Assembly: GCA_018716975.1 (NCBI GenBank)
Contig: DVJE01000044.1
Location: 1 to 64,000, forward strand
DNA: 64,000 nt
Reading direction: 5' to 3'
From: Candidatus Gallacutalibacter stercoravium
GTDB taxonomy: Bacteria; Bacillota; Clostridia; Oscillospirales; Acutalibacteraceae
This document shows, piece after piece, positions 4,560-63,623 of this stretch; the stretch's first letter is position 1; every line of letters starts with the position of its first letter. The notes beneath the pieces were generated by a model that searched no databases, was not told the origin of the DNA, and was given only the letters and a program-made list of their open reading frames with translations. Both the position numbers and the translations under genes were made by a program.

Positions 4560-4948
4560 AACAGTTCTTTCGCCTCCCTTTTCTATTTCGCCTTCTCTTT
4601 CTATTCACCGGCAACTTCTGTCCTGTCATTGTGGTAACCAGTATAGCATAACCGAACCCCCAAAAACACCGCTGCTTTCTAGACGCTTCAATACGGGATA
4701 CTGCTTGGTTGCTAACCTGTTCATCAACGATTTTTGGATGATAAGCCCGGTGATGCGTACTTTGCGTCTTTTGGTGGGAAAAAAGCAGGGTGCAGAGAGA
4801 ATCATTCACTGTTTCTTTTTTGGAATTATAATTTAGCCTATTATTTTATACTATAAATAGAAATTTATGTTATTATAACGAAAAAGAGCGCCGCTTTGGG
4901 GTGATAAGTCTTACTAGAAGAAAGATGAAAAAAGAAGGGGGCAAAACG
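4560..4948. other. divergent intergenic region, AT-rich
   Basis: It separates the leftward DUF1835 gene from the rightward lipoprotein. Positions 4830-4880 are strongly AT-rich with several TATA-like boxes (TATACT, TATAAA), none with a convincing -35 partner. No gene is seen. A GTG at 4901 and an ATG at 4925 are in frame with the lipoprotein but have poorer ribosome sites than the TTG at 4949. Confidence 0.45.
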
Positions 4949-5884
4949 TTGAAACAGGTTGTTTGTTTTCCGCTCCTTAGGGAAACCTGCTTAACACAGT
5001 GTAGCGTTTTGAGGCCGCCGGAACTATTGAAACGGCTCAATCGGTTCGGGCAGCTGGCATTGTTCACAGCGATTCTTGCGCTGGTAGCCCTTTCGGGCTG
5101 CTCTTCTCAACCCACCGGTTCTCCGCAGGCGCAGGGGTACGACTTTCGCCAGGTGCGCCTGCCCGGCACAGCGGATTATGAAGAAATCCACGAAACCCAG
5201 CCTAATTTGCTGCAAATGCTCTCGCAGGAGGCGGGCATGCAGCAGATATCCGCTTTGGAATCCGCGGCAGAACCCACAGCTAACTTGGTGCTGGACGAAG
5301 GCGTAAAGTTGTATTGCTACCCTTACCGGGAGCTGCTTTGGCTGATACAGGAGGGGGAGCTGGCGGAGGATATCCGTACCGCTGGGCGCTATGTTTGGAA
5401 TTTTCCCGTGGAGTGCAACCGCAACAACGGCAATCTGGTGCAGGTGGAATACCGCCTGTGCCTGCCCGGGGAATTTGGATACGGTGTCTACGGCAGCCCG
5501 CCGGGTTCGCAGGAGGGCGTATTTCCGGTTACCGTTGCGCAGAGGGGAAGCGCGGAGGAAAGCTACACCTACCGCTATGCTTCGGTAGCGGAGGATGCAG
5601 ACGGGACGCTGGGCTTCCTGTTTGATCCGGCGGGGCTGGAAACGCTGCTACAAGAAAACGGGCTGGAGCAGGCTGAATATCTGATTCCTGTGCAGGTTTC
5701 CAACAGCCCCGGCGGGGAGTTTACCCTGCTGTATATCGCCCCAGGGCGGGGTTCCGCCGACGATTATGTGGTCTTATACGGTGCGGATCTGACGGGGTGG
5801 GAGAACGGCAGGCTGTACCCCGCAAAGGATTTCTGCGCGCAGGCCCTAGCCCAGCTGCCGGCGCCCGGCGCGCCGGAGGAATGA
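4949..5884 (+). CDS. lipoprotein, member 1 of a four-copy anchored family
   Basis: The likely start is TTG 4949 with AAGAAGGGGG seven bases upstream, giving 311 residues. A hydrophobic segment ends in the lipobox LSGC (Cys51), predicting surface attachment. The mature protein shares an ordered set of blocks with the proteins at 5932, 62747 and the partial 63624: an acidic opening around YDFRQVRLPG; a block like ANLVLDEGVKLYCYPYREL; a W/Y-x-FPV block (YVWNFPVEC); a block like GTLGFLFDPAGLETLLQENG followed by LIPV; then a late strand and a TYR/PAKDF-like end. I know no named family. The next gene starts 47 bases downstream, so the two form an operon. Confidence 0.75.
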   Translation: MKQVVCFPLLRETCLTQCSVLRPPELLKRLNRFGQLALFTAILALVALSGCSSQPTGSPQAQGYDFRQVRLPGTADYEEIHETQPNLLQMLSQEAGMQQISALESAAEPTANLVLDEGVKLYCYPYRELLWLIQEGELAEDIRTAGRYVWNFPVECNRNNGNLVQVEYRLCLPGEFGYGVYGSPPGSQEGVFPVTVAQRGSAEESYTYRYASVAEDADGTLGFLFDPAGLETLLQENGLEQAEYLIPVQVSNSPGGEFTLLYIAPGRGSADDYVVLYGADLTGWENGRLYPAKDFCAQALAQLPAPGAPEE

Positions 5885-5931
5885 GAGGGGCCGCTGCGCC
5901 TAAAACGTGCAGAAAGGAAAGGGGTGCGCAG

Positions 5932-6687
5932 ATGAACGCCGAGAACAAGCAAAAGCATATGGGCAAAAGCGCGGGCCTTTGGTGGGGCCTGGGCGTGTTG
6001 CTGGCGGCGGCGCTGGGCCTAATTGCCTGGGGCACAGTTACCCTGCTGACCGCACCAAGTGCCGGCCAAAGAGAAATACGCTATGATTACCGCACCGCAG
6101 CCGTGGGGGATTCGGCAGACGCTGATGAAATTCACCCGCAGCAATGGCGCCTGCGGCAGTTTTTGACGGAACAGGACGACGCCGATACACTGCTAAACCG
6201 GGGGGTTAAAATCTGGCAGTACAGCGGCAATGCGCTTATCAGCCAGCTGCAAAGCGGAACGCTGGCGCAGCAAGCGGCGGATCACCCGGATTATGTGTGG
6301 AACTTTTTGTTACCGCGCGACGGCTGGCATCAAGGTGTCCGGGTCATCCACGGCCGTGTAGAAGGGGCCCGCGGCGCGCCGGATGGGGACTACTACCGGT
6401 ATGAATGGGTGCAGTCCATGGATTTTCGCATCGCCGGGGGCAGCAACGGGCAGTATCAAAAGGACGGATATAACGTCGTTTTGCAGAAGGCGGGCATTGC
6501 CGACGCCCAGGTGCTCCTACCGATAGAGGCCTATTTTAACAGCGGAAAGCAGCTGCTGCTTTATGCCGAGCGTCAAGGAGAAAAATATGTTTTTCTTTGC
6601 CCGGTTGGGGAGGCCCCCACCCAGGAGCAGATACAGGCCGGCCTTTATACGGTAGAGGAGTTTCTTGCCTACGCGCAAAGCCTGTAA
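5932..6687 (+). CDS. membrane-anchored protein, member 2 of the four-copy family
   Basis: The start is ATG 5932 with AGGAAAGGGG just upstream; an open frame reaching back to 5797 overlaps the previous gene and is not used. The 251-residue product has one membrane segment (about 15-38) and no lipobox, so it is anchored by a helix with the rest outside. It keeps the family blocks: YDYR opening, LLNRGVKIWQYSGNALI, YVWNFLLPR, GYNVVLQKAG with VLLPI, then LLLYAE and a final YTVEEFLAY. It is about 20% shorter than member 1. Being co-transcribed with a lipidated paralogue suggests the two act together. Function unknown. Confidence 0.75.
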   Translation: MNAENKQKHMGKSAGLWWGLGVLLAAALGLIAWGTVTLLTAPSAGQREIRYDYRTAAVGDSADADEIHPQQWRLRQFLTEQDDADTLLNRGVKIWQYSGNALISQLQSGTLAQQAADHPDYVWNFLLPRDGWHQGVRVIHGRVEGARGAPDGDYYRYEWVQSMDFRIAGGSNGQYQKDGYNVVLQKAGIADAQVLLPIEAYFNSGKQLLLYAERQGEKYVFLCPVGEAPTQEQIQAGLYTVEEFLAYAQSL

Positions 6688-62746: not shown

Positions 62747-63559
62747 CTACCATGCGGTAGGCTGCAAGGCGTCTTTCTCCTTCATCATGCGCAAGAATTC
62801 TTCCCCTGAATATACGCGTATGTTATCGACATCCGAAAAGAAAAGGCCATAGGGAATTACGTAACATTGGTCGCGGCAGGCGATGTAAATCAGTTCTGCT
62901 TGGTACCCCCGGTTTTGATACCGGTAGGTGTAACAGACGGGCACCAAAGCCTGATAATCCCATATGCCGGATGTTTCTAGTAAAACTTGCACTACTTCCG
63001 GGTGAAAGGCATAACCGCCCAACCAGTCGTAACTGCTATAGATAAATTTGTCTTCCCAATAATACCGGGCGGCCTGGTGTTGCTGCGGATCAGCGCCGGT
63101 ATGGGTGAAAGCCAGGAGATGATATAAAGACTCGGAACGCCGCACGGGAAAATACCAGCTGTAGTATTCACTGTTTAAAAGTTCATACGGCACGCCCCCT
63201 TGCGACAGTAGATCGGCCACTTGGAGGGCATCGCAGTTATAAACCTTCACGCCGTTCTCTATAATCAGATTGGCCTCGGGGGCCTCTGCCTCTTCTGTTT
63301 GCGCCAACAGAGGCGCTCCATCTAAAGTGGGGCGCAGCAGATCCAGCATTTGCTCTTGGGTATGGGTAAAATTCTCATAGTCTTCAGCGCTGTCAGAAAT
63401 GGAAAACCGGCGATAATCATATTCAGGTGTTTGGGCCAAAAAACGGGGCGCCAATGCCGCCAAGGTGCCGGTGATACCCCCAACCGCCAGCACACAAGCC
63501 AAACATAGGCCCACTGTTCGCCGCTTTAATTTACGAAAGAACGAAGCAAACCGTTTCAT
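62747..63559 (-). CDS. membrane-anchored protein, member 3 of the four-copy family
   Basis: The start at 63559 follows AAGGGCGG, giving 270 residues; the longer frame to 63700 overlaps its neighbour. One membrane helix (about 15-36) has no lipobox. It keeps the family blocks: YDYRRFSISDSAEDYE opening, ANLIIENGVKVYNCDALQVADLL, YYSWYFPVRR, GGYAFHPEVVQVLLETSGI followed by LVPV, IYIACRDQCYVIPYG and a final VYSGEEFLRMM. It lies 64 bases after member 4 on the same strand. The four proteins share block order but little overall identity, so they must have diverged considerably. Function unknown. Confidence 0.75.
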   Translation of the reverse strand: MKRFASFFRKLKRRTVGLCLACVLAVGGITGTLAALAPRFLAQTPEYDYRRFSISDSAEDYENFTHTQEQMLDLLRPTLDGAPLLAQTEEAEAPEANLIIENGVKVYNCDALQVADLLSQGGVPYELLNSEYYSWYFPVRRSESLYHLLAFTHTGADPQQHQAARYYWEDKFIYSSYDWLGGYAFHPEVVQVLLETSGIWDYQALVPVCYTYRYQNRGYQAELIYIACRDQCYVIPYGLFFSDVDNIRVYSGEEFLRMMKEKDALQPTAW

Positions 63560-63623
63560 AACAACACCGCCCTTTTCACCGGTTGAGATTTGAAAGAAAA
63601 GCATTTTGACGCCGCCGGCTACC

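Follow-up and report, generated by a model that had tools for sequence, protein, structure and literature searches.

Anchored partner proteins of secreted papain-like proteases, multiplied in a Candidatus Gallacutalibacter stercoravium genome, as candidate extracytoplasmic inhibitor/immunity proteins

We found that an unnamed family of membrane-anchored proteins supplies, in many Gram-positive bacteria, the partner encoded downstream of secreted papain-like cysteine proteases of the C39/C70 type. The window, which is the whole stretch of 64,000 nucleotides analysed here (the beginning of contig C21 of a Candidatus Gallacutalibacter stercoravium genome of 2.98 Mb that is 98% complete), contains two adjacent members near its left end and further members at its right edge, and a profile search of the genome found 17 members on six contigs (Table 1). 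We judge it slightly more probable than otherwise that these proteins are extracytoplasmic inhibitor or immunity proteins for secreted papain-like proteases that have expanded into orphan poly-immunity arrays. This is the best-supported reading, and it rests on the operon link to the protease, the predicted export and anchoring, the excess of partners over proteases, the mosaic sequences and the precedent of TipC, TilA and Cpi1.

The initial annotation described members 1 and 2 as a lipidated and a helix-anchored paralogue in one operon. Both statements agree with what was found, as the genes lie on the same strand with a 47-bp gap and no terminator-like site between them, the first has a lipobox (LVALSGCSS), and the second has an N-terminal membrane helix that is preceded by positive residues, which predicts that its C-terminal domain faces out. 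The start codon of member 1 is ambiguous (TTG 4949, ATG 4925 or TTG 5027), and the promoter-like site upstream of it is one of 2 such sites in the region, with 1.5 expected by chance. The proposed blocks align in order in members 1 and 2: a GVK strand block (GVKLYCY/GVKIWQY), a W/Y-x-F block (YVWNFPV/YVWNFLL), a third block (LLQENGLEQAEYLIPV/VLQKAGIADAQVLLPI) and an end block (LYPAKDF/LYTVEEF). Common descent with the genes at the right edge was likewise confirmed using a homology profile built with both proteins left out, which matched P0001 with E 3.1e-36 and P0002 with E 1.1e-23; as a control for chance, the best E of 2000 shuffles was 0.69. No C39_2/C70-type protease is near the pair in the neighbourhood read, and thus the pair represents an orphan branch of the family. 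Elsewhere in the window there are two small paralogous lipoproteins (1385-1717 and 2685-2939, both on the + strand) with a cysteine-rich, zinc-ribbon-like C-terminal part containing CxxC repeats ('EVDEPCxYCxSSPS').

Table 1. Family members and the promoter-like site in the window, and family members by contig of the same genome.
Feature	Position	Strand	Description
Promoter-like site TTCACT-16-TATAAT, 10/12	4805..4832	+	Upstream of member 1; weak
Member 1 (P0001)	4949..5884	+	Predicted lipoprotein, lipobox LSGC, extracytoplasmic family domain
Member 2 (P0002)	5932..6687	+	N-terminal membrane helix, domain as in member 1
Member 3 (P0003)	62747..63562	-	Helix anchor at the N-terminus; final gene of the tandem array of five
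Member 4, C-terminal 124 residues	63624..63998	-	Full gene C21:63624-64463 crosses window edge
Family members on C21	4949-6687; 62747-67217		Window pair; array of five
Family members on C20	83121-83942; 97362-99009		One gene; pair
Family members on C4	18152-21582		Four genes
Family members on C25, C29, C35			One gene each

At least four copies in 64 kb had been claimed. Three members in the window are complete, and the fourth is present only as its C-terminal part. What had been taken for a second pair is the start of the five-gene array on C21, which has three further members beyond member 4. Pairwise identity among the 17 members has a median near 21%. Five of them sit with the two proteases of this type in the genome and the other 12 are orphans, most of which are anchored by a lipid or by an N-terminal helix; the array of five, the window pair and the pair on C20 are all tandem paralogues without an adjacent protease. 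Members were found in only 2 of 59 relatives with the first profile, in at least 8 of 394 genomes of the order with a wider profile and in at least 13 of 391 genomes of the class with a third one; the order and class tallies include the genome itself and a few partial matches and come from different samples, which leaves the true frequencies uncertain. The P0010 protein used as a query gave no match in the named genomes, which indicates that the orphans are strongly diverged. Beside the five-gene array and divergent from it are an ABC transporter ATPase and an FtsX-type permease (L013:7545-10383, corresponding to C21:67544-70382) that resemble antimicrobial-peptide resistance (Bce-like) exporters.

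In the same genome but outside the window, a member is found directly 3′ of a secreted papain-like cysteine protease on contig C4 (Pfam PF13529 1.4e-7, PF12385 1.7e-6) and on contig C35 (PF13529 1.8e-12). The family profile found the same arrangement in other Clostridia (two copies in G504, and in G533 and G740), and the reverse search led by the protease yielded new loci with an adjoining family member (L093 and L094) as well as, at the start of a contig, a family locus whose protease match is interrupted (L098). We also scanned the named genomes with the protease alone, which gave 54 loci, 50 of them with a readable next gene. The product of this gene looked exported by hydropathy in 45 of the 50 loci, and a C-terminal helix was also present in 30 of those 45 proteins. 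At 30 loci outside the training set, spread across Clostridia and Bacilli, the gene directly downstream matched the family profile with E<1e-3; at L121 the order is reversed and the partner precedes the protease. The only clear match away from a protease among the 593 ORFs scanned is a second member (L116:9328). The protease-linked partners combine a signal peptide with a membrane helix at the C-terminus, unlike the window genes with their lipid or N-terminal helix anchor. When the orphans were compared with the protease-linked partners of other genomes, with no sequences shared between the two sets, hhalign gave a probability of 97.5 and an E of 8e-12 over 207 columns, and the comparison with five C-terminal-helix forms, three of them from this genome, gave a probability of 99.7 and an E of 2e-25.

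Several other genes were seen around such proteases. At the end of the C35 contig, a transposase-like ORF (L038:5553-6452) lies directly 3′ of the protease-partner pair. Small secreted proteins of varied kinds are encoded directly 5′ of several of the proteases (L111:5239-5676, L114:382-837, L116:5660-5974 and L094:2152-2625); by Pfam they are not one family, and a third component or a substrate is a possible role. In Amycolatopsis, the gene that begins 4 bp after the protease encodes a product of similar size with export signals, which is a look-alike only, since homology to the family is not detectable. More widely in Amycolatopsis and relatives (L140, L143-L151), the gene for a similar protease is followed at a distance of a few bases by one for an exported-looking protein of ~250 aa, which may be a highly diverged or a non-homologous partner.

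The protease has a signal peptide. Its Gln, Cys, His and Asp/Asn residues (Q-x5-W-C-W, H and D/N-P) are conserved in 8 of 8 aligned proteases, as would be expected for an active papain-like enzyme. Two proteases of the partner-linked type are present in the genome, and the profile for that type does not match three other C39_2 proteins (C39, C8 and C36). The protease-partner loci showed no dedicated toxin-delivery system. A plasmid or viral origin was rejected, as the protease gave no plasmid match and a search for the fold in BFVD yielded nothing below an E of 0.001.

AlphaFold models of P0003 (pLDDT 84.9, pTM 0.80) and of the P0012 ectodomain (pLDDT 92.1, pTM 0.89) show one order of elements (helices, strand, helical stretch, three strands, helix, three strands, helix), which gives a confidently predicted seven-stranded alpha/beta domain. 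Neither model had a significant match in the PDB. The best row covering the ectodomain in both models was YpmB (2gu3, Z 4.5, rmsd 4.9, 114 aligned for P0003; 9a5z_A, Z 4.3, rmsd 4.8, 124 aligned for P0012), a weak resemblance with Z well short of the values that establish a fold and possibly only a common arrangement. Since the ectodomain has no confident structural match, the fold names no function. The PepSY profile matched none of the 48 members, and a sequence search found no known structure (1y88_A, E 0.083, was disregarded). An internal duplication of the ectodomain is unsupported by hhalign, which found no internal sequence repeat, although the order of the strands seems repetitive. A cystatin fold was rejected because the stefin B and affimer rows have a Z of only about 2-2.6, and a PUR domain (Foldseek E 7.8e-3) because the TM-score is low and a second aligner sees only part of it. 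The C-terminal-helix forms mostly end in a cytoplasmic tail of a few basic residues and thus lack a signalling domain.

The tandem copies are mosaics in which one DNA block is near-identical and the remainder is strongly diverged. Three tandem copies on C4 share 78-98% nucleotide identity over residues 1-120 and 39-62% beyond them. P0006 and P0007 of the C21 array have 84-93% nucleotide identity over about residues 61-120 and 31-50% in most segments outside this block, with 66% just after it. Block gene conversion and a faster change of the remainder would look alike in such tandem copies. An independent duplication is found in Paenibacillus massiliensis (L118), where two near-identical tandem partners lie behind one protease. 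Of 190 pairs of loci compared, 185 show a faster divergence of the partner than of the protease (median identity 16.4% for partners and 24.6% for proteases), which could reflect relaxed constraint, and the divergence of the two is correlated (r=0.87). Block-wise recombination has been documented for tandem esaG and tipC genes (PMC9484751) and for tandem tilA genes (PMC10730906), and the mosaic tandem copies found here resemble the tandem immunity genes esaG and tipC.

In the mechanism that we propose, the ancestral module would be a two-gene operon. Its first gene would encode a protease of ~190 aa that carries a signal peptide, and its second, which begins a few bases after the first, a partner of about 260-320 aa that consists of a signal peptide, the seven-stranded alpha/beta domain and a membrane helix at the C-terminus. 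This partner would most likely bind and inhibit the protease on the surface of the cell, which would protect the producer and its kin. The partner gene would have multiplied to 17 copies, with most orphans switching their anchor to a lipid or an N-terminal helix, and we infer that the orphans, including the window pair, may neutralise variant proteases from neighbours as a poly-immunity repertoire.

A partner that is obligate might just as well serve as a chaperone, an anchor or a substrate. The close linkage of the two genes in a conserved order, side by side in most readable loci, the correlated divergence of the two proteins and the fact that the best remote fold resemblance is to YpmB, together with the stabilisation of a partner enzyme by the PepSY-type YpeB (PMC10653890), would suit an activator, chaperone or surface anchor that holds or matures the protease at the membrane, with the orphans as alternative docking proteins. 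We regard this as rather unlikely, because 12 of the 17 copies have no adjacent protease in a genome with only two such proteases, and because tandem mosaic diversification is hard to explain in this way. A general surface or adhesin family that is functionally unrelated to the proteases, with an adjacency that is merely historical in some lineages, appears very improbable: most copies in this genome and those in G006, G056 and G098 have no protease neighbour, but the protease-only scan still finds the family next door at the 30 untrained loci in Clostridia and Bacilli.

Signalling genes are found near some of the loci. In Ruminococcus sp. SIG547 (L138), an AgrB gene (L138:5215-5781; PF04647 E 1.5e-39) lies 45 bp upstream of the protease, AgrB genes are near both G504 copies (L075:4585-5148 and L074:8751-9260), where GHKL histidine kinases are also nearby, and a protease-free member in L040 adjoins a sensor kinase/response regulator pair. 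The agr genes beside the module are a hint of density-dependent control, which is compatible with each reading. AgrB at L138 and G504 and the kinase/regulator pair at L040 would favour a partner that is a substrate or receptor of the protease, whose ectodomain would be cleaved to free a signal or to signal via the helix, perhaps in quorum sensing. However, the short basic tail without a signalling domain, the lipidated members, which cannot signal across the membrane in that way, and the small number of agr-linked loci make such a role distinctly improbable. If the inhibitor/immunity reading is followed further, the module may represent an undescribed form of Gram-positive extracellular antagonism, which we propose tentatively and with somewhat less than even confidence: a papain-like protease toxin secreted by its signal peptide and a membrane-anchored immunity protein, sometimes beside agr genes, would need no dedicated injection machinery, and some Clostridia would carry large recombining arrays of orphan immunity genes.

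The suggestion that no named family has this arrangement stands, as Pfam, NCBIfam and PADLOC contain no entry for the domain. At the curated cut-off, none of the 48 members had a Pfam or NCBIfam match over the conserved domain, and the matches obtained were sporadic and sub-threshold or to an unrelated fused domain (SLH); the sub-threshold ones (MamD, T2SSM, PsV_CP_C and TypeIII_RM_meth) fall on anchor regions or short stretches and are taken as chance. A role in anti-phage defence was rejected, as PADLOC gave no match. In the open PMC literature, which is itself incomplete, we found no published description of the protease-partner module. The family had also been read as an actively expanding surface or sensor system. 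Expansion at the surface agrees with the mixed anchors, the 17 copies and the signs of recombination; the sensor part is not retained, as there is no signalling domain, and the link to envelope stress finds no support, as stress-gene context is absent. A sensor or envelope-stress family was rejected on these grounds. Given the family's pairing with secreted proteases, a sensor system is not the best reading, and a protease inhibitor/immunity role fits better.

These results give an unnamed family a testable function, that of a regular companion of a secreted papain-like protease in Clostridia and Bacilli; arrangements that look similar occur in Actinobacteria. Should the partner confer immunity, simple secreted proteases would serve as weapons between Gram-positive bacteria, and the arrays would record conflict in a manner comparable with the esaG, tipC and tilA arrays but not tied to type VII secretion. 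Should it act only as an inhibitor or regulator, it would still be a new family of exported protease inhibitors.

Among known systems, TipC, which acts against the streptococcal T7SS toxin TelC, is an immunity protein that is anchored by its N-terminus, faces outward and has tandem paralogues downstream of the toxin gene (PMC6193138), and homology blocks in tipC allow recombination (PMC9484751). The family shares with TipC the outward-facing domain and the tandem non-identical paralogues, with an N-terminal membrane helix or a lipobox as its anchor. TipC2 has seven beta-strands and three helices and the family model seven strands and several helices, a comparison by element count; TipC is not among the structure matches listed for the P0003 and P0012 models, but the two may still share a fold. 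The neighbour of TipC is an LXG lipid II phosphatase, whereas that of the family is a papain-like protease with a signal peptide. TilA and the other tandem lipoproteins (DUF576) that act on the staphylococcal T7SS lipase TslA are extracytoplasmic immunity lipoproteins in variable tandem arrays, which are shuffled by recombination across a conserved stretch (PMC10730906); the enzyme class and the delivery differ, and the family matches no Pfam family. Cpe1-Cpi1 combines a papain-like cysteine protease toxin with a co-encoded neutralising immunity protein (PMC12136450), but it is Gram-negative, is delivered by T6SS/CDI and targets cytoplasmic GyrB/ParE, whereas both products here carry export signals and the partner is predicted to stay outside the membrane. 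YpmB/TseB, a PepSY-type two-domain membrane protein, is similar in that it is single-pass and faces outward, and it acts with cell-wall synthesis proteins (PMC10653890); the family, in contrast, has no PepSY Pfam match. Polyimmunity loci of polymorphic toxin systems are homogeneous one-family tandem arrays without a toxin, in which nearly all surveyed immunity proteins are cytoplasmic (PMC3482391), while export and anchoring are predicted for this family. Orphan immunity genes that have diverged can still protect (PMC12247911). Taken together, the family and its pairing with the protease are new as far as tested, and the apparent mode, toxin-immunity or protease-inhibitor, is one already known.
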